DNA of 34,124 nucleotides from contig DYLG01000010.1 of NCBI GenBank assembly GCA_020722215.1, forward strand, positions 1 to 34,124. Reading direction: 5' to 3'. The translations under genes were made by a program, and so were the position numbers. Position 1 is the first letter of the stretch. Each line of letters begins with the position of its first letter. Positions 22,427 through 34,124 of the stretch are shown here, piece by piece. Source of the stretch: Desulfomonile tiedjei (GTDB lineage: Bacteria; Desulfobacterota; Desulfomonilia; Desulfomonilales; Desulfomonilaceae). The notes beneath the pieces were generated by a model. It was given only the letters and a program-made list of their open reading frames with translations. It did not search any database and was not told the DNA's origin.

Positions 22427-23257
22427 CTACCGGGGTCTCGCGGTGAGGAATCCGTCAAACTTCAACCTCTGGTGGGGGCATGCATCAATGCATCGAGCAC
22501 AGTTCGTGCACAATAGATTGCCGCCTTCCCGATAGGGCTGCAATCCCATGGGGCACGCGGACAGGCAGGGGCTTTCCTTGCAGCATGGAACGGCAGGATT
22601 CTTCGTTTCCGAGACTATTCTTAAGGTGAACGAAGACCGGAAAAGAGACAGGAATGCTCCGGTTGGGCAGAAGAACCTGCACCAGAAACGCGGAATCAGG
22701 GTGAACTCGAGGCAAAGCAGCACCGCGATGAATCCGATTTCCAGCGAAAAGGTTCGCTCCTTGACGAAAATCATTGCCTCCGTGCTTGTGATTCCCGGAG
22801 CACTCAGATAGTTGAGCACCGGTATTCCAATGGCGCCAGCAGCGGCCGTGCCCACCAGCAGGAAACCGAAACGCCACATATTCGCGGAAAAGGATCTCTT
22901 CACGGCGGGCGATGCGGGTTCGGCTTTCTTGAGTATGCGGGTTGCCGCTGCTAACCGAGCCGCACAGGCAACATCGGACAGGAGATGATACGGGCACATC
23001 CAACCGCACCATACCCGCCCCAGGAGCAAGGCCAGAAGCACCGGAAATATTGCGGCGCTCAGGAGTGGAACCGTCAGCTCTCCCGCGGCAAACATGGCCT
23101 GGAGAATCACCACCGGGTCTGCGATTCCGAGTCCTCCTATGTTAATTGCATAGAATGTTCCCGTGATCGCATAGATCTCATAGAGGTTCAGTACCGGCAC
23201 GGCGAACATGAGCGCAAACACTGCAATTTGTGAAGCGCGTCTGTAACGTCTGTACAT
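22427..23257 (-). CDS. napH: NapH-like membrane ferredoxin (4Fe-4S quinol dehydrogenase component)
   Basis: Multiple TM helices, RVWCGWMCPYHLL and FWCRFFCPTGAFLSL (NapH/CcoG-type C..CP motifs), C-terminal CTNCARCIDACP. Confidence 0.82.
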   Translation of the reverse strand: MYRRYRRASQIAVFALMFAVPVLNLYEIYAITGTFYAINIGGLGIADPVVILQAMFAAGELTVPLLSAAIFPVLLALLLGRVWCGWMCPYHLLSDVACAARLAAATRILKKAEPASPAVKRSFSANMWRFGFLLVGTAAAGAIGIPVLNYLSAPGITSTEAMIFVKERTFSLEIGFIAVLLCLEFTLIPRFWCRFFCPTGAFLSLFRSSFTLRIVSETKNPAVPCCKESPCLSACPMGLQPYREGGNLLCTNCARCIDACPHQRLKFDGFLTARPR

Positions 23258-24039
23258 CAGTCCCAGCCCTCAATTTGGTCGGATGTTTCGTAAGGGAATT
23301 GGAAATCGGATGCGTCTCTCGATCCATCTATCTTGTATTTGCGGTCGAGAAGCTCTTCGCCCTTCAAGGCTCCTGACGAAGGCTTTTCAGCCCGGGAAAC
23401 CGCGGAATCGTGGTGGCGCCGGGCCTTGCCGAAATAGAACCCTGCCTCATCCACACGCCCCATGCCCGAGGGAATCACGTTGATCGCTCGCCTCGGCCTT
23501 GTGGGACAGCGTTCCGTGCATATTCCGCATCCGACGCATCCGTCCAGGACAACCGGAAAAAGGTTGCCCTTGAGCGTGATCGCTTTGTCCTGCAAAGGGC
23601 AGACGTTGTAACAAGTGTTGCACAGCGCTCCGATCTTTTGCTTAGCCCCTTGAGGCACTTTGTCCCGGTCTAGGAAAAGATGGCTGTAGCAAATGGATGG
23701 GTCGATCTTTGCTTTGCCCATTACCGCTTTTTCGGGGTTGCGCAGATGAGCGTCGAGCGCTCCGGTGGGGCACAGGCGACAACAGGCCATGCAAAGGTAG
23801 CAGGCTTTTTGCTCGGGGAATACATAAGGGGTGCCCATGGGCGGACCAACACCGGCCCTCTTGATGGACCCGTACGGGCAGACTTCCAGGCAGCGATTGC
23901 ACCGGATGCAAAGCCCCATGAACCGGCGCTCATCCACCGCGCCCGGAGGCCTTAGCCGGTTGATAGCGTAGTTGTTCACAAACGGATTCTGGCCGCGAAC
24001 AAAAACCCTTTCCAGAAATTCTCTCAAGCCGTCAGCCAA
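23257..24039 (-). CDS. napG: NapG-like 4Fe-4S ferredoxin protein
   Basis: Four ferredoxin-like clusters: CIRCNRCLEVCP, CYLCMACCRLCP, CNTCYNVCP, CVGCGICTERCP; immediately upstream of napH; no evident Tat signal in the called start. Confidence 0.8.
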   Translation of the reverse strand: MADGLREFLERVFVRGQNPFVNNYAINRLRPPGAVDERRFMGLCIRCNRCLEVCPYGSIKRAGVGPPMGTPYVFPEQKACYLCMACCRLCPTGALDAHLRNPEKAVMGKAKIDPSICYSHLFLDRDKVPQGAKQKIGALCNTCYNVCPLQDKAITLKGNLFPVVLDGCVGCGICTERCPTRPRRAINVIPSGMGRVDEAGFYFGKARRHHDSAVSRAEKPSSGALKGEELLDRKYKIDGSRDASDFQFPYETSDQIEGWD

Positions 24040-24347: not shown

Positions 24348-26741
24348 TCAGACTTTCACGGGAAAGGGCTCATCTACGCTGGAAATTATCTTCATGTCCG
24401 CGACGTCCTTCGGATCGCCGAATCGTGAGATCTTTACCGCGCAAATCTTGAACTCAGGCTGTTTGGAACCCGCGTCAAACGCGTCGATGGTCACGCGGTT
24501 GATCATCCTATCCCAGTCCTGGTCAAACCATGGCACGAAAAGTATTCCCGGCAAGGACACCTTGACGACGCGCGCGGGAAGAATGCAGAATCCCCGACGA
24601 CTTGTGATCTTGACAAGGTCGCCGTTGCGGATTCTGTGTTTTTCCGCGTCGGTGGGATTGATCTCTACGTACGCGTTGGGTTGGGAGCGGGCTATCTCAG
24701 GCACGCGCATGGTCATGGTACCGGAATGCCACTGCTCGATGACACGCCCGGTAGTGAGAAAGAAGTTGTACTCGTCGTCAGGCGGCTCTTCCGCTCCTTT
24801 GTACGGCCTGAGAAACACGTTGGCTTTGCCCTCGTGGTTTTTGTCTCCGTAGAAGTAGATCCTCGCTGAACTGGGGACCTTCACTATTTGAGGCATGTCC
24901 ATGATGGGATCGCGGCCTCTGACGTACCGCCGCTCGGTGCCGGGGCTCTTTTCGTCCGGGCAGGGCCACTGCAAGCCGGCCTCGCTCTTTTCAAGTCGCT
25001 CGTACGTCATGCCGAAAATGGTGTGTTCGGTCAACTTCACGCAATTGCGGTAATCGTCCCACGCCATTTTGTATGCGGTCCGCGGGTCGTCTCCATTCCA
25101 CGGAATGAGCTTTTCAAAGCCCATGCGCTTGGCAATCTGCGCTCCTATCCACAGGTCGGGTTTGGCTTCGCCGGGAGGATCAACGCACTTGCTCGTCAAC
25201 TGGCTTCGACGCTCCGAGCATCCGTACACGCCTCCTTTTTCATAGATGAACGCAGCGGGCAGGATCACGTCGGCGAACTGGGTTGTCCGGGTCGGAAATA
25301 TGTCCAGCACCACGAGAAAGGCTTCCTTCATTCCTTTCCAATACTTATGGCCGTTCGGGAGAGACTGGGCAGGGTTGGTCGTGGTGATCAACATTCCCTT
25401 TATGGGTTTTTTGGCATCACTTTCTGCGCCCAGACTTGCGAACATCTGCATGGTGTGAGCGCCCGGATTGGGATCTATCTTTCCCGGGGGCAATCCCCAT
25501 GCTTTCTCCACCTGGTCACGCACCTCAGGAATGGTGACGGGCCTGGTGCCCGGCAGAAGGTGGCTCAGTGCGCCGGTTTCACGCACCCCGCCGCACGCGT
25601 TAGGCTGTCCTGTCAGCGAGAATGAATCGGCTCCGTCAACGCAGATATTGCCAGTGATCAGGTGGAGGTTGTGGACAAGGTTGTTTGCCCACACGCCGCG
25701 GGTCCGCTGGTTGAGTCCCATGGTCCACAGGCTCATCGTGGGGCCTTGGGAACCGAACAGGCGTGCGGCTTCCTTGATGTTTGCAGCCGGGCATCTTGTC
25801 TTCTTCTCGACCGCTTCGGGAGTAAACTGCTCCAGGAACTCGACGTAAGCCTTGAAATCAACGACCTGTTTGCCCGTGTTAAAACGGCACAGGTTTTCAA
25901 TGAACCACTTGTCCGTCCAGCCGTTCTTGATTAGCTCCCGGGCCATGCAGTGAAACACGGCAAGATCCGTTCCCGGGTCGGCTGGGAGCCATACGTCGGC
26001 AATGCGGGCTGTAGAGGTGAGCCTCGGTTCGCAGACGATCACGTTGATCAGGTCGGGATCTTTCAGCTTTCTCCTGGCGATTCGTCGAAAGATTATCGGA
26101 TGGCACTCGGACATGTTTGAGCCCACGATGAAGAACGTGCGGGCCTTCTCGATGTCCGAGTACGCGCCGGCCGGTTCGTCCGTGCCGAAGGTTGTCACGT
26201 ATCCGCCGACCGCCGACGCCATACAGAGTCGAGGATTGCCCTCAACCATATTCGAGCCGAACCCGCCCTTCCACAGCTTGTTGAAGGTGTAGCTCTCTTC
26301 GGTCATGCACTGGCCGGACCCATAGAATGCAACGGCGTCTTTTCCGAACTTCTGCTGTAATTCCTTGAACTTCTTGCAGACCAGGTCAAGGGCCTCATTC
26401 CACGAAACACGTTTGTATTTTCCGTCCGCGCCACGAACGAGTGGGTACTTCAAGCGGTCCGGATGGTACATGCTCATGTATCCCTTGAATCCCTTAACGC
26501 AAAGAAAGCCGAAATTAGTCTGGGCCTCGGGATTGCCTCTCACTCCGACGACCTTGCCCTGCCTAACGCCTATGTATACGCCGCAGCCGGTACCGCAAAA
26601 CCGGCACGAGCCTTTGACCCATTTGTCCACCTCGATCCGATCCCCGGCCGCTCCGGCATCCCGGTCAACCGGTATGTTCAAAGCACCGGCGGCGAATGCG
26701 GCAGCCGATAGTTTGATCATCTCTCTGCGAGTCATATTCAT
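24348..26741 (-). CDS. napA: Periplasmic nitrate reductase catalytic subunit (molybdopterin, 4Fe-4S)
   Basis: Tat signal MTRREMIKLSAAAFAAGA; CRFCGTGCGVYIGVRQGKVVGVRGNPEAQTNFGFLCVKG; Mo-Cys region RLCMASAVGGYVTTFGTDEPAGAYSDIEKA; DSFSLTGQPNACGGVRETGALSHLLPG; start MNMTRRE preceded by ggagg. Confidence 0.88.
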   Translation of the reverse strand: MNMTRREMIKLSAAAFAAGALNIPVDRDAGAAGDRIEVDKWVKGSCRFCGTGCGVYIGVRQGKVVGVRGNPEAQTNFGFLCVKGFKGYMSMYHPDRLKYPLVRGADGKYKRVSWNEALDLVCKKFKELQQKFGKDAVAFYGSGQCMTEESYTFNKLWKGGFGSNMVEGNPRLCMASAVGGYVTTFGTDEPAGAYSDIEKARTFFIVGSNMSECHPIIFRRIARRKLKDPDLINVIVCEPRLTSTARIADVWLPADPGTDLAVFHCMARELIKNGWTDKWFIENLCRFNTGKQVVDFKAYVEFLEQFTPEAVEKKTRCPAANIKEAARLFGSQGPTMSLWTMGLNQRTRGVWANNLVHNLHLITGNICVDGADSFSLTGQPNACGGVRETGALSHLLPGTRPVTIPEVRDQVEKAWGLPPGKIDPNPGAHTMQMFASLGAESDAKKPIKGMLITTTNPAQSLPNGHKYWKGMKEAFLVVLDIFPTRTTQFADVILPAAFIYEKGGVYGCSERRSQLTSKCVDPPGEAKPDLWIGAQIAKRMGFEKLIPWNGDDPRTAYKMAWDDYRNCVKLTEHTIFGMTYERLEKSEAGLQWPCPDEKSPGTERRYVRGRDPIMDMPQIVKVPSSARIYFYGDKNHEGKANVFLRPYKGAEEPPDDEYNFFLTTGRVIEQWHSGTMTMRVPEIARSQPNAYVEINPTDAEKHRIRNGDLVKITSRRGFCILPARVVKVSLPGILFVPWFDQDWDRMINRVTIDAFDAGSKQPEFKICAVKISRFGDPKDVADMKIISSVDEPFPVKV

Positions 26742-26777
26742 GGCTTCCTCCAACGATCGGATTGCGTTTTGCGAGGA

Positions 26778-27349: not shown

Positions 27350-28177
27350 TCATTTGCATGCCTTCAGAGCTTCGACAAGACCGGGCACTGCCGGGGCTCC
27401 GATCTTCCTCAACGTGTCCTCGGCCGGCCCGGAGATGTTCGGATCGCGTCGCAGAACAAGCCGTATCAGTGGGTCCACCGCCGGGGCTCCGATCTGCGCC
27501 AGGGCCTCCGAAGCAGCGTCTGCGGAAGGGCGGTCCCCTTTTTCCATGACCTCGGTGAGCTGAGGAACCGCGCTTGCGCCGATTCGCCCAAGCGCTTCCG
27601 CTGCTGCCGACGCCCTGTTCCGGTTGTCGCTTGCCAGCGAGTCGATCAAGGCCCGCACTGAGTCCGGCGCCATCGCGCCAAGGGCCAGTATGGCCGCGTC
27701 GCGAACCTTTTTGTTCGCGTCTCCCAGACATTCGATCAGAGCCGGGATTGAGGCTTTCGACTGAGCCCTGATGCTGAAGAGTGCCAGCGCGGCAGCTTCT
27801 CTCACCAGAGGCTCCTGATCCTTCAGCGCCTCCACAAGGACATCCACCGCCGGCTTTGCGTTGGGGCCAAGCTCCGACAGAGCCTCCACGACAGTCAATC
27901 GAACAACCTCGTTCGGGTGCTTAACGGCGGATGCAAGGGCGCGAACAGTATCGGCTTCCAATCGACGTTGTTTCTTGAGCGCATTGGCTGCACGCATGGC
28001 AGTCAGCGGATCGGGACTGCCGAGATCTCTGGTCAGAGATGCCGGCTCCAGGGGACTCGCTGCCTGTTCCGCCGCCGAGGCCGCCATCGAAGACAGGAAC
28101 GCCAAGATCAATCCGGCGATCATCAAAACGGTTCCCGGAACTGTTGATCCGGAGGATTGCGCAGATCTGGGTTTCAT
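27350..28177 (-). CDS. Exported HEAT-repeat protein
   Basis: N-terminal hydrophobic segment TVLMIAGLILAFLSSMAASAAE; repeated VREAAALALFSI, VRDAAILALGAM, RASAAAEALGRIGASAVPQL units; start at MKPRSAQ preceded by gggag. Confidence 0.85.
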   Translation of the reverse strand: MKPRSAQSSGSTVPGTVLMIAGLILAFLSSMAASAAEQAASPLEPASLTRDLGSPDPLTAMRAANALKKQRRLEADTVRALASAVKHPNEVVRLTVVEALSELGPNAKPAVDVLVEALKDQEPLVREAAALALFSIRAQSKASIPALIECLGDANKKVRDAAILALGAMAPDSVRALIDSLASDNRNRASAAAEALGRIGASAVPQLTEVMEKGDRPSADAASEALAQIGAPAVDPLIRLVLRRDPNISGPAEDTLRKIGAPAVPGLVEALKACK

Positions 28178-28196
28178 GGCTCTCCCTTCGTCCGAG

Positions 28197-29414
28197 TCAG
28201 GCCGCGGTCCGAGCGTCCTTGGTGAGTTCGCCCGTTTCAATGGGTATGATCAGCTTCAGGATCAAGGTCAATATGAGCAGTCCAAGAGACCATACCCCAA
28301 GCGTGACGAGAAGCTCCACCGCCGTAGGAGCATATTCCCAGACTTCTCCCAAAGGCGAGGGAATGAACCCCGGAATAATTAACCCGATTCCTTTCTCGAT
28401 CCAGATACCCAGTATGATGAGCACGCACCCCACATTGAGCGTGGCAAAGTTCCTGCGGGTGGCAGGGACGAGAAAAATGAGGAATGCCGCCACATTGAAT
28501 GCGAACGCACACCATATCCACGGAACAAGTCTGCCTTTTCCGTGAAGTCCTGCATACAGATATTGCAGCGGCGAAAGATGATGCGTGTCCGAATAGAGTT
28601 CCTTGAAGAATTCTGCTCCCAGCAAGAACAGGTTGATGGCCATCGCGTAAGCGATCATTTCGGCGATCTTGAACAGCGCCTCGTCCTTCACGTGGAATTT
28701 CGTGTACTTCCTTACCACCTGATAGAGAAGCATCACCAAGGCCGGTCCGGAGCAGAATGCGGAGGCCAGGAACCTCGGCGCGAGGATAGACGCGTTCCAG
28801 AAGGGTCGAGCAGCGAGGCCGTTGTAGATGAACGCCGTGACCGTGTGGATGCTCACCGCCCAGGGGATCGAAAGGATGATGAAGGGCGTTATGAAACGCA
28901 TGTTCGTGGGTTCGTTGTGATATGCCTTCCAGAGGATGTATCCCGGAATGAACAGGTTGAGAAACAGGTACCCGTTCAGCACCACTATGTCCCAACCCAA
29001 CAGGGACGTGGGCAGATTGAGAATCCCCCAGCCTGGAATCAGATGCCACAGCCTGTCAGGTCGGCCCAGGTCGGCAGTCACGAACATGAGACACATCAAG
29101 AGAGCGCTTACGGCAAGGGCTTCACCCACGATGACTATGTCTCGGATGGGGCCGAATTGGTACACGTAAGCAGGAATGATCAGCAGTACCGCGGCAGCGG
29201 CAACCCCGACCAGAAAGGTGAAATTACCGATGTAGAATCCCCACGACACGTAACCGGTCATGCCGGTGACAATCAGGCCCGTCTGAAGCTGCTTGGAATA
29301 AGCCGCGATCCCCACACAGGCAAATGTCAACAGGACAAGTACCCACACGTAGTAGACCGGGGGTCCTGTTACCAGCGTCTTGACGGCCCGCACAAAGAAT
29401 CCGGATCTCTGCAT
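28197..29414 (-). CDS. nrfD-like: NrfD/PsrC-family membrane subunit (quinol-interacting)
   Basis: About 10 TM helices, ADLGRPDRLWHLIPGWGILNLPTSLLGWD, typical NrfD/DsrP/HmeB signature. Confidence 0.85.
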   Translation of the reverse strand: MQRSGFFVRAVKTLVTGPPVYYVWVLVLLTFACVGIAAYSKQLQTGLIVTGMTGYVSWGFYIGNFTFLVGVAAAAVLLIIPAYVYQFGPIRDIVIVGEALAVSALLMCLMFVTADLGRPDRLWHLIPGWGILNLPTSLLGWDIVVLNGYLFLNLFIPGYILWKAYHNEPTNMRFITPFIILSIPWAVSIHTVTAFIYNGLAARPFWNASILAPRFLASAFCSGPALVMLLYQVVRKYTKFHVKDEALFKIAEMIAYAMAINLFLLGAEFFKELYSDTHHLSPLQYLYAGLHGKGRLVPWIWCAFAFNVAAFLIFLVPATRRNFATLNVGCVLIILGIWIEKGIGLIIPGFIPSPLGEVWEYAPTAVELLVTLGVWSLGLLILTLILKLIIPIETGELTKDARTAA

Positions 29415-29429
29415 GATTGCCCTCGACTG

Positions 29430-30401
29430 TCAGATCGCGAAGAAGTAATAGAACTTCGGTTGGGTATTCAGCTCTTCTTTCAGGCGGAACACCCTCTTGG
29501 TCTTTATTATCCGGTTGATCTCGCTGTCGGGATCAAGAAGGTTGCCGAATTTCCTGGCCCCGACCGGGCAGACCTCGACGCATGCCGGGTACTTTCCCTT
29601 TCTCACTCTCTGGATACAGAAGGTGCATTTTTCCACAACGTTGCGCATACGGGGCCTGTTACCCAGGTAATGGGTTTGGGTGTTGATCCTGTCTTTGGGA
29701 ATAACCGGCTCGGCGAAGTTGAACCACCGCCCCATGTACGGACAGGCTGCCATGCAGTAACGGCACCCTATGCACCAGTTGTAGTCCACCACGACTATGC
29801 CGTCGGGTTCGGTCCAGGTTGCCTGGACAGGGCACACCTTTGTGCATGGAGGATTCGCGCAGTGCTGGCACTGGACCGGCATGTAGTAATAGCCCTGTTC
29901 GGGCACTTCCTCGGGATTGTAGTAGATCGTGGATTCCTCCAGATCCATGTTCCCGCGCTTGAATCTGAGCACTCGTATGTATTGAATCTGCGGGTCTCTG
30001 GACTGGTTGTTCTCCTCGACGCAGGCATAAACGCAGCGCCTGCAACCGATGCACCGCTGAATGTCCAGCCCGTAGGCATACAGAGTCCCGTCAATGGGGC
30101 CCTCAGCGCCCACAACGAACTCTTTTCCATATTTTTCCTTGTATTGGGTCCGGAGTCTCTCTATGGTCCCCTCGATCTCCTCCTTGGTCATCTGCTTGAA
30201 ATTCTTCTGAAAGAACTCCTGCCAGGTGCATGAACTCACGGCGAACAAGCCGAGCACTCCTGCCGCACTTTTCAGGAAGGTGCGGCGGTCGGGCAGCGGC
30301 TCTCGGGTATTGCCGGATTCCCGATCCGGTCCCTTTGGGTCTACGTCGTCATGCCCTTGCTCAGGGACGGATTCTTCGTCGGTGAATTGTCGATCACTCA
30401 T
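29430..30401 (-). CDS. Tat-exported 4Fe-4S ferredoxin (NrfC/DsrO/HybA-like)
   Basis: Tat-like RRTFLKSAAGVLGLFAVSSC; CIGCRRCVYACVEENN, CQHCANPPCTKVCP, CIGCRYCMAACPY, CTFCIQRVRKGKYPACVEVCP. Confidence 0.87.
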   Translation of the reverse strand: MSDRQFTDEESVPEQGHDDVDPKGPDRESGNTREPLPDRRTFLKSAAGVLGLFAVSSCTWQEFFQKNFKQMTKEEIEGTIERLRTQYKEKYGKEFVVGAEGPIDGTLYAYGLDIQRCIGCRRCVYACVEENNQSRDPQIQYIRVLRFKRGNMDLEESTIYYNPEEVPEQGYYYMPVQCQHCANPPCTKVCPVQATWTEPDGIVVVDYNWCIGCRYCMAACPYMGRWFNFAEPVIPKDRINTQTHYLGNRPRMRNVVEKCTFCIQRVRKGKYPACVEVCPVGARKFGNLLDPDSEINRIIKTKRVFRLKEELNTQPKFYYFFAI

Positions 30402-30413
30402 GGCTTTGCACCT

Positions 30414-31037
30414 TCAGTGCTTGGCGGACTCGTCCTTGGGAGTCCAGGGTTTGCTGGGCGGCGGCATGGGCTCAAGAGTCTTGAACCTCGGAGAATGGGG
30501 AGAATGGCAGTTAACGCACAGGTAGTACTCTTTCTTGCCGTTCCATTCTCCTGTTCGTTTGCCGTGTATTCCTTCCCGCCAGTCCCTGTATTTGGTTCCA
30601 TGGCACTTGCCGCAGAGAAGATAGGAATGCTCGAAGGTGATCAAGGTGCCGTCGCTCAAGGGAAGAAGGTGGTTACGTTCTTCCGGGTGATGACAGTCCA
30701 GGCACCAGACCCTTACTCCGCCATGGTTCAGTTCGATGTTCCTGTGCACCAGCAGCGCCTCTTTTCTCCTGAAGTTGATAGGGAAGTCCTTTTTGGGCCC
30801 GTGGCACGCACTGCACGGGGAAATGTCTTTCGGAAGAGGCTTGACCGGTACTGGGAACTCCTCACCGGGTTTGACCTTGGGTTCCAACTGTTTCCGAAGA
30901 TCGCGGCGCAACTCGGGGAACGTCTCGACATAGGGTTGCGCGGAAGCGATGCTTGCCAAAAGTCCCCAATATGTTGCGAGCGTGCTCGAAATGAGGGCCG
31001 CGACAGCGACAACAAGGATTCGGTTTTTCCCTTTCAT
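30414..31037 (-). CDS. Membrane-anchored or secreted tetraheme c-type cytochrome
   Basis: N-terminal hydrophobic segment ILVVAVAALISSTLATYWGLLASI; four CxxCH: CSACH, CLDCH, CGKCH, CVNCH. Confidence 0.83.
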   Translation of the reverse strand: MKGKNRILVVAVAALISSTLATYWGLLASIASAQPYVETFPELRRDLRKQLEPKVKPGEEFPVPVKPLPKDISPCSACHGPKKDFPINFRRKEALLVHRNIELNHGGVRVWCLDCHHPEERNHLLPLSDGTLITFEHSYLLCGKCHGTKYRDWREGIHGKRTGEWNGKKEYYLCVNCHSPHSPRFKTLEPMPPPSKPWTPKDESAKH

Positions 31038-31070
31038 GGGCTCGCCCTTATCTCCGCTCATGCTGCGGGC

Positions 31071-32432
31071 TTACTGGGCTTCTCTGCCGCCGTAGCGTTT
31101 CTTGTAGAATTCCTCGACCCTCTTGAGTTGCTCTTTGCTCATCCCCTCCTTGTACCAGCGGTGCATGGGGTCCTTGAAAACAAGCTCGTCGAGCAAGGGC
31201 GCTGCGGCTGCCTTGCCGCCCATAATGTGTTCCACTTCCGGTAGGAATTCCACGTAGAAATGCTTGGCAACTTCGTACATGCCGTGCCACCACGCATAGT
31301 CCGGTCCCATCATCGAAGCGCCGTGGCGGCCTCGACGGCCCTCGTGATGCCACAATTCCCAATAGATCCAATCGAGCTTGTCGTCGAAGTCGGCCTTGCT
31401 GATCTTGCCCATGTCAATGAGTTTCTTGCGGATATTCGTGGCAGGAATGCCGAACTTGTTGTTGTAAAGCTCCACAAGATCGTCAAACTGTTTGTAGAAA
31501 TCCTGTACCATGAAGTCGCTGTGGCACTGGCGGCACACGTCGTGCATGTTTAACCTGCGCTGTGTCCAGTTAGTCAGCTTCTTGGAAACGGCAGGTCTCA
31601 GCGTCCAGGAGATACGGGCGCCCACTTCGTGCGTGGCCGGCTGGTTCGGTGTGGCAGAGATATGGCATGTGGCACAGGTGGCTGCATCCTGATAGTCCAC
31701 ACCTACGATCCACTGGTCTCTATCCATGTTCAGCTTGTCCCTGAAAGCCTGGTACAGTATCCCGTGTTTGGACTCGTTGTAAATCTCTATCTGCGGATGA
31801 TCCGGCCCAAGGTGACACTTACCGCACGCGTCCGGCCGTCTGGCTTGTTCCTTGGAAAACCTGTGCCTCGTGTGGCACGCCGAGCAACTCCCCTTGCTCC
31901 CGTCCGGATTGATGCGGCCTATGCCCGTATTGGGCCAGGTTGCCGGGTCCAGCCGGCCGTTCTGGACAACCTTGATGTTGGAGCCATGGCACTGACGGCA
32001 TCCCGTGGAAACGCAAGGCGCTCCGCCCACCACTTCGCCCAGGTAGTTGTCCGAAGAATTGAGAATGTCCGCTGCCTTGGCGTGGTGCGAGGACTGTTGC
32101 TGATCGAACTGTTCCTTGTGGCATCGGGAGCAGTCCTTAGGACTCACCAAGGTTACGATCCAGAATCCCCTGTGGTCGTAGCCGTCCGGATCGCCGGGCT
32201 CTTTGTCCGTCTTTTTCTTGGCCTGGTGACAGTCATAGCAGTTGACGCCCGCCTGGCCCATCTTGCCCGTTCGCCACATCTTGTGGAGGGCCGGCGTCTT
32301 CAACTCGTGACACTTGATGCAGACCTGCCCCTCCTGGGAACCGTAAAGCTTCGGATCGACCTTCACCGCAGCAACCGCGGCATAGGAACAGACGAAGATC
32401 AACAGCGCGACGGGGATGAGAATTCTTCTCAT
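31071..32432 (-). CDS. Octaheme c-type cytochrome, hydroxylamine oxidoreductase (HAO)-like
   Basis: Signal peptide MRRILIPVALLIFVCSYAAVAA after ggagtggagcc; eight CxxCH motifs (CIKCH, CYDCH, CSRCH, CRQCH, CSACH, CGKCH, CATCH, CRQCH); C-terminal WHHEGRRGRHGASMMGPDYAWWHGMYEV resembles HAO-family C-terminal helices. Start corrected from the 563-aa ORF. Confidence 0.8.
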   Translation of the reverse strand: MRRILIPVALLIFVCSYAAVAAVKVDPKLYGSQEGQVCIKCHELKTPALHKMWRTGKMGQAGVNCYDCHQAKKKTDKEPGDPDGYDHRGFWIVTLVSPKDCSRCHKEQFDQQQSSHHAKAADILNSSDNYLGEVVGGAPCVSTGCRQCHGSNIKVVQNGRLDPATWPNTGIGRINPDGSKGSCSACHTRHRFSKEQARRPDACGKCHLGPDHPQIEIYNESKHGILYQAFRDKLNMDRDQWIVGVDYQDAATCATCHISATPNQPATHEVGARISWTLRPAVSKKLTNWTQRRLNMHDVCRQCHSDFMVQDFYKQFDDLVELYNNKFGIPATNIRKKLIDMGKISKADFDDKLDWIYWELWHHEGRRGRHGASMMGPDYAWWHGMYEVAKHFYVEFLPEVEHIMGGKAAAAPLLDELVFKDPMHRWYKEGMSKEQLKRVEEFYKKRYGGREAQ

Positions 32433-32546: not shown

Positions 32547-32570
32547 TGTGTCAGCTTGCATGTTGACACA
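32547..32570. promoter_or_regulatory. Candidate operator: TGTGTCA-N10-TGACACA inverted repeat
   Basis: Perfect 7-bp inverted repeat with 10-nt spacer in the divergent intergenic region, 115 nt upstream of the HAO-like gene start. Confidence 0.5.
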
Positions 32571-32577
32571 GTTAATC

Positions 32578-32615
32578 GTAAAGGTGTGGTAAAAGGATGT
32601 AAAGAACCTGTAAAG
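32578..32615. promoter_or_regulatory. Four phased direct repeats GTAAAG / GTAAAAG / GTAAAG / GTAAAG
   Basis: Repeat starts at 32578, 32589, 32599, 32610 (11, 10, 11 nt spacing, one helical turn each), in the intergenic region between the divergent respiratory operon and the sensor kinase. Confidence 0.6.
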
Positions 32616-32932: not shown

Positions 32933-34124
32933 ATGCTGTCTCGATTCAGATCTCTGTTTGCCAAAAGGATTTCCTTCAAGTTCCTGGCGAGCACCGCGCT
33001 GGCCACTCTGGTGATATTCCTGTTCCTGATCGTGTGGTTCTCGGTCGAGCAGGAGAAGCACATCATGGAGCAGGTGAAGACGCAGGCGATCATCCTTCAC
33101 AAGCAGATAGTGCTGACACGACAGTGGGTTTCCGACCACCGGGCAGTGCTCGTTCCCAAAACGGCTGAGGAACAGATCTCTCCTTTTTTCGAGGAACCCG
33201 AGGTAAGAGGTTCCGACGGCAAGGCTTACATCAAGATATCGCCGTCCTCAATAACCAGGATTCTTTCGCAACGGGCGCGCAAGGACGAACTCTACTGGTT
33301 CAAGCTTACCAACACGGATCTTCTCAACCCTGCCAACGCGCCGGATGAATACGAGATTCAAGCCTTGGAGCAGTTCAGGGGAAATGGGGTCCAAGGTGTC
33401 TTCCGAACGGAACGCATTGACGGCAAACCCGTGCTCCGTTACGTCGCGCCCGTACGCTCTTCCGAAAGCTGTTTGCAATGCCACATGGTGCAGAAATACA
33501 AGCCGGGCGAAGTGGCAGGGTGTTTGAGCATTTATGTGCCCATGGATGCCGCCATGACGGCAATCAACCGCAACAGGGCCATCCTGTTGGGCGGCGGAGT
33601 CGGGCTGGCCGCCGCGCTGGTCGTTTTGCTTTTCCTGGCGACGCGTTCCATGGTGTTCAAGCGCATCGGCGAGATCAGGGCAGCAATGAGCCGAATGACC
33701 AGCACAACTCCCGGCGAGGGTCCGACAGACCGCGGAGACGAACTCAAGGAAATCGCCGACTCCTGTTATCTCCTGGACGAGAAACTCAAGAACCAACACC
33801 TGGAACTGGAACGAAAGATCGCCGAGGCAACCAGGGATCTCTCGGGGGCCAACCGGAACCTGGAAGCGGCAAATGAAGACCTGCGAATGCTGAACCAAGC
33901 CAAGTCGGACTTCTTCTCGGACATCTCACACGAACTCAGGACCCCGTTGACCAACATCAAGGGAGCGGCAGACCTCCTCCTGAGGAAACTCTCGTGCGAC
34001 GACCCGAGCTGCATCGAGATCATAAGGCGAAACGCAGATCATCTGATCAAAATCGTTGTTGATTTCCTCGATTACTCGAAGATCGAGGCAGGACAGTTGG
34101 AGCTGCATCCAGCTTACGGCTCGG
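32933..34124 (+). CDS. Sensor histidine kinase with Tll0287-like (DUF3365) c-type heme sensor domain; truncated by window end
   Basis: Open frame from ATG 32933 to the window end (absent from the ORF track because no stop): MLSRFRSLFAKRISFKFLASTALATLVIFLFLIVWFSVEQEKHIMEQ...SSESCLQCHMVQKYKPGEVAGCLSIYVPM..., second TM AILLGGGVGLAAALVVLLFLAT, HAMP-like region, HisKA SDFFSDISHELRTPLTNIKGAADLLL. Confidence 0.87.
   Translation, partial: MLSRFRSLFAKRISFKFLASTALATLVIFLFLIVWFSVEQEKHIMEQVKTQAIILHKQIVLTRQWVSDHRAVLVPKTAEEQISPFFEEPEVRGSDGKAYIKISPSSITRILSQRARKDELYWFKLTNTDLLNPANAPDEYEIQALEQFRGNGVQGVFRTERIDGKPVLRYVAPVRSSESCLQCHMVQKYKPGEVAGCLSIYVPMDAAMTAINRNRAILLGGGVGLAAALVVLLFLATRSMVFKRIGEIRAAMSRMTSTTPGEGPTDRGDELKEIADSCYLLDEKLKNQHLELERKIAEATRDLSGANRNLEAANEDLRMLNQAKSDFFSDISHELRTPLTNIKGAADLLLRKLSCDDPSCIEIIRRNADHLIKIVVDFLDYSKIEAGQLELHPAYGS

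Follow-up and report, generated by a model that had tools for sequence, protein, structure and literature searches.

Repeats and promoter layout

In Desulfomonile tiedjei (assembly GCA_020722215.1, contig DYLG01000010.1), four short, regularly spaced repeats lie in a 497-bp gap between a minus-strand octaheme-cytochrome operon and a divergent, plus-strand sensor kinase gene, raising the question of which regulator they might serve and which of the two transcription units it would control. The window, by which we mean the whole stretch of DNA analysed (34,124 nucleotides), is the entire contig, whose end interrupts the kinase gene; the assembly is 82% complete. Re-reading the sequence confirmed four GTAAAG-type repeats at 32578-32615, as given in a preliminary description of this DNA: on the plus strand, GTAAAG starts at 32578, GTAAAAG at 32589, and GTAAAG again at 32599 and 32610. 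The spacing is 11/10/11 nt, so that the direct repeats are about one helical turn apart. The repeat unit proposed there needs trimming, since among 14 aligned sequences the GTAAA core is conserved and the trailing G is variable; on the minus strand the conserved core reads TTTAC, mostly TTTACA. The window contains a single instance of four GTAAA copies spaced 10-12 nt apart, and the array pattern is found once in the 3.74-Mb assembly. We generated 20,000 shuffled versions of the 497-bp intergenic region, preserving dinucleotides; two GTAAA copies at array spacing appeared in 27 of the 20,000 shuffles, and three or four copies in none.

All four half-sites share the minus-strand orientation of the cytochrome operon. 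Half-site 1 (TTTAC, 32610-32614), the most upstream, is TTTAC in 13 of the 14 aligned sequences and ATTAC in one; half-site 2 (TTTAC, 32599-32603) is TTAAC in 5 of the 14; half-site 3 (32589-32593) is invariably TTTAC and usually TTTTAC; and half-site 4 (nTTAC, 32578-32582) overlaps the -35 region. The functional unit extends from the half-sites to a putative -10 element at 32560-32565 on the minus strand, 12 nt past half-site 4, which was located by alignment and matched to the consensus by inspection. This element is weak in the window (CAACAT) and reads CATAAT in most relatives. Across the 14 family sequences the conserved unit is A-N2-TTTACA-N2-TTC-TTTACA-N2-CT-TTTACA-N-CAC-N-TTTAC-N12-CATAAT on the minus strand, with mean information of 1.47 bits per column in the array versus 0.28 in both flanks. 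N12 followed by a -10-like hexamer is found in all 14, and also in the 11 other and 15 variant sequences described below. There is no -35 consensus at the normal distance from the -10 element; the last half-sites occupy that place. Transcription would start near 32553, which would place the starts of the half-sites at about -61, -50, -40 and -29. A 22-bp inverted repeat (GTGTCA-N10-TGACAC, 32549-32570) that overlaps the -10 element and the putative start is not conserved in relatives, and was set aside.

Genes flanking the array

The operon on the minus strand opens with an octaheme c-type cytochrome (31071-32432), in whose sequence we count eight CxxCH motifs, followed by a second gene recognisable from its sequence as a multiheme c-type cytochrome (30414-31061). 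Next come a DsrO-like ferredoxin subunit (29430-30401), which scores below the curated DsrO cut-off, an NrfD/DsrP-like membrane subunit (28197-29414), which scores above the DsrP cut-off, and a HEAT-repeat protein identified by domain match (27350-28240). A NapA-like molybdopterin oxidoreductase scoring below the NapA cut-off (24348-26753), and NapG-like and NapH-like ferredoxin proteins assigned from profile scores (22427-24039), lie further downstream. The nearest solved relatives of the octaheme protein are the multiheme protein 4qo5 and hydroxylamine oxidoreductases, a fold family linked to N-oxide chemistry (PMC8840924).

On the other side of the array, the plus strand encodes a sensor histidine kinase (32933-34124) that is cut by the contig end. 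It carries an sCache_heme (Tll0287) domain (PF11845, 5.7e-20) with the heme motif CLQCH, fused to a HisKA domain (5.2e-20); full-length relatives have HATPase_c in addition. The Tll0287 family (DUF3365) comprises Cache domains with a covalently bound c-type heme, as described in a 2026 preprint (PMC12889525).

The array and an OmpR-type regulator occur together

Because the contig ends inside the kinase gene, the partner regulator is not directly visible, and a search for a close ortholog in the window's own, 82% complete assembly found none. The preliminary description had placed a cognate OmpR-type regulator just beyond the window, and the relatives support this: in 11 of them an OmpR/PhoB-type regulator gene directly follows the orthologous kinase gene, which is itself divergent from the orthologous operon. 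Response_reg and Trans_reg_C domains are present in the regulators of the four relatives scanned; the window's own copy would lie past the contig end. Scored against the PhoB model, the regulator of one relative (G002) reaches 195.6 bits, short of the cut-off of 296.2, and is not classed as PhoB. The same description had named in advance two outcomes that would count against its reading, namely loss of the repeats in relatives with the same gene arrangement and a sigma54 NtrC-type partner. The repeats proved to be conserved in such relatives, and a partner of that type was found only in another lineage, with another promoter (see below).

Counting the window's own genome, 14 members of the family keep the array, with one copy per genome, always at this promoter. 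All 13 array-bearing relatives encode an ortholog of the regulator (57-65% identity to the query from G007), while regulator and array are both absent from five genomes (G009, G010, G014, G015 and G042). The upstream sequence is truncated in G009 and G042, and no close ortholog of the operon is present in G014 or G015; G010 retains the full region upstream of the cytochrome gene, which clearly contains no array. The G010 locus (L044), from a genome that is 83% complete, thus has an octaheme operon with neither array nor regulator, a likely case of natural loss of the entire control system.

A looser pattern (three half-sites plus the -10 element) matched the same promoter only, apart from one weak extra match in G017; hence, the array is a predicted single-target operator. 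Two genomes, G004 and G012, have the kinase-regulator pair relocated far from the operon and still keep the array before it, which argues that the link between array and regulator is functional rather than one of mere neighbourhood. The relocated pairs adjoin genes that by eye resemble NADH-dehydrogenase/hydrogenase-type genes (L158:4231-6569 and L159:3511-5888), and a transposase-like gene lies near the G004 array (L035:1182-2507).

Arrays outside the family

We searched 395 genomes of the phylum for the array, allowing one mismatch at most, and found it in 12, seven of them outside the family; the reversed-pattern control gave no match. Two order-level scans added four more arrays, with two matches to the reversed control in those scans. 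In all 11 of the resulting non-family arrays, 12 nt separate the last half-site from a -10-like hexamer. An sCache_heme sensor gene adjoins the array at each of the ten loci with enough flanking sequence; at the eleventh (G490) the contig ends. Target operons outside the family vary, including Rieske/cytochrome b, NapC-type tetraheme and different molybdoenzyme genes, and a homolog of the window's octaheme cytochrome is present wherever the sequence is long enough. Among 80 loci with octaheme homologs, the array occurs only where the OmpR-type pair is present, and within this search no array was found beside octaheme homologs in other phyla (Nitrospirota, Acidobacteriota and more).

At one locus (L155:5133-5987, minus strand), an in-frame fusion joins the sensor domain to the final two thirds of an OmpR-type winged helix, with an intact array adjoining. 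Conceivably the product is a one-component regulator, a reading that we set aside; since the first third of the winged helix is missing, the fusion is probably an internal deletion or an assembly error.

Half-site sequence varies with the recognition helix

A phylum-wide search identified the regulator in 44 of 395 genomes. Of 34 further regulator loci, 15 have an exact [GT]T[AT]AC quadruple array with 11/9-10/11 spacing and N12 to the -10 element, and the reversed control gave 0. The variant half-sites include TTAAC and GTAAC, in the same layout as the TTTAC arrays. The exact variant array is absent from the other 19 loci, some of which are contig ends or carry degenerate arrays (L217, L220).

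The identity of the half-sites sorts with helix residues X1X2 of the motif DVHxX1X2LR at 37 of 37 loci. QH helices go with TTTAC (22/22 loci), RH helices with TTAAC three times and then TTTAC (4/4), QR helices with TTAAC/GTTAC/TTAAC/TTTAC, with minor deviations (5/5), and RR helices with GTWAC/GTWAC/TTAAC/GTWAC (6/6). The array-linked regulators group together in the tree as a single clade (support 100/99), to the exclusion of 13 paralogs and of E. coli CpxR and PhoB. Since helix class mostly goes with lineage, the 37 loci are not 37 independent instances of co-variation, and few changes on the tree are needed. The TTAAC group and one TTTAC group are sisters, and the GTWAC group is placed elsewhere, indicating that the shift occurred more than once, although far fewer than 37 times. 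One clade with QH helices (L236, L238, L241-L243 and L245) has neither an array that we could find nor an octaheme operon nearby; hence, the site cannot be predicted from these two residues alone. Where it could be seen, the sensor in this clade is a related one.

A different output for the same sensor domain

At three loci, L082-L084, an sCache_heme kinase gene is again divergent from an orthologous octaheme cytochrome gene (at ~5001), but the output differs. The regulator there is NtrC-type (Sigma54_activat, HTH_8) rather than OmpR-type, and instead of the TTTAC array the promoter combines a TGGCAC...TGC -24/-12 element with GTTACC/GGTAAC palindromes. In these systems the sensor and the target have been retained and the entire output exchanged, an evident example of rewiring.

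Discussion

We consider it highly likely that the repeats function as the operator for a dedicated sCache_heme kinase/OmpR pair that activates the octaheme-cytochrome operon in the manner of PhoB. The observations behind this reading are the repeats themselves, their conservation, the fixed spacing to the -10 element, the linkage and co-occurrence of the regulator, and the co-variation of helix and half-site. In the proposed mechanism, the kinase, a membrane protein whose Cache domain (PF11845) is extracytoplasmic and carries a c-type heme, would phosphorylate an OmpR/PhoB-type regulator, the gene for which would lie just past the contig end. The phosphorylated regulator would bind the four head-to-tail TTTAC half-sites on one face of the DNA as two tandem dimers and, since half-site 4 lies at the place of the -35, 12 nt from the -10 element, would recruit sigma70 RNA polymerase in the way known for PhoB at the pho box. 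Recruitment would then switch on the minus-strand octaheme-cytochrome/molybdoenzyme operon. PhoB sites overlap the -35 region (PMC3348028), and activation by PhoB is held to require that its site lie at a strict distance from the core promoter (PMC10294691). An N12 that stays constant from lineage to lineage agrees with this and so argues for activation. The E. coli pho box is likewise a set of head-to-tail direct repeats at one helical turn, overlapping the -35 region at a strict distance from the -10 element and bound by an OmpR-family regulator. However, its half-site is TGTCA, whereas the sites described here have four half-sites of TTTAC and one target per genome, and the sensor is a c-type-heme Cache kinase.

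It is improbable, in our judgement, that the same regulator and site serve mainly to repress the operon or to autoregulate the divergent kinase gene. A divergent region permits control in either direction, and OmpR-family regulators can act dually (PMC10294691), but the half-sites share the orientation of the operon and keep a fixed 12 nt to its -10 element in every lineage, and the lack of a good -35 is the layout of activation. Moreover, the distance from the array to the kinase start varies widely, and G004 and G012 retain the array with no kinase nearby. Far less credible still is the notion that the repeats are an AT-rich spacer or a chance tandem repeat with no regulatory role. Short repeats can arise by chance in AT-rich promoters; against this, none of the 20,000 shuffles gave three or more copies, and the array is kept across genera and families where its flanks have diverged, a conservation that already refutes the idea.

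We also give very little credence to the idea that a CpxR-type envelope-stress regulator binds the array as a CpxR box, even though the resemblance is close. The CpxR motif is GTAAA-N5-6-GTAAA (PMC9600279), practically the same half-site and spacing as on the plus strand here, and the CpxR recognition helix, RAIDMHISNLRRKL, is similar to RAIDVHIQHLRAKL. However, the CpxR box has two half-sites where the array has four, the linked regulator scores 160.2 bits against a CpxR cut-off of 341, placing it outside CpxR, and in the tree it is separate from E. coli CpxR; the regulator family and the sensor differ as well. CpxR controls a large regulon, whereas here there is one site per genome.

If the repeats are the operator of an activating kinase/OmpR pair, what would the pair sense? 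A signalling-type sCache_heme domain from P. azotoformans binds nitric oxide tightly, releases it slowly and forms no stable oxygen complex (PMC12889525), and the divergent kinase here has a domain of this family with its CxxCH motif. Given this property of the domain family and the N-oxide chemistry of the relatives of the octaheme fold, nitric oxide is the likeliest signal, and it is plausible, with the balance about even, that nitric oxide is indeed sensed and that an N-oxide-handling operon is the response. A still broader reading, which we hold tentatively and on balance lean slightly against as a whole, is that of a phylum-wide family of periplasmic NO-sensing two-component systems. Each would control one octaheme-cytochrome operon through a four-half-site operator, with regulator and operator co-evolving (QH-TTTAC, RH-TTAAC, RR-GTWAC) and with the output of one lineage swapped to NtrC/sigma54.

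The type of site is a known one, an OmpR/PhoB-type direct-repeat operator, and the regulator-operator family appears to be undescribed: in the open-licence literature we found no described operator for sCache_heme two-component systems, and the preprint on sCache_heme domains (PMC12889525) mentions no response regulators, promoters or operons, to which the output side described here is an addition. The natural series of helices and half-sites in one fixed promoter frame constitutes a data set on how DNA specificity changes in the OmpR family. For the newly recognised class of c-type-heme sensor kinases, our analysis supplies a candidate output side (regulator, operator and single target operon), through which the signal of the sensor kinase would become accessible with a simple reporter.
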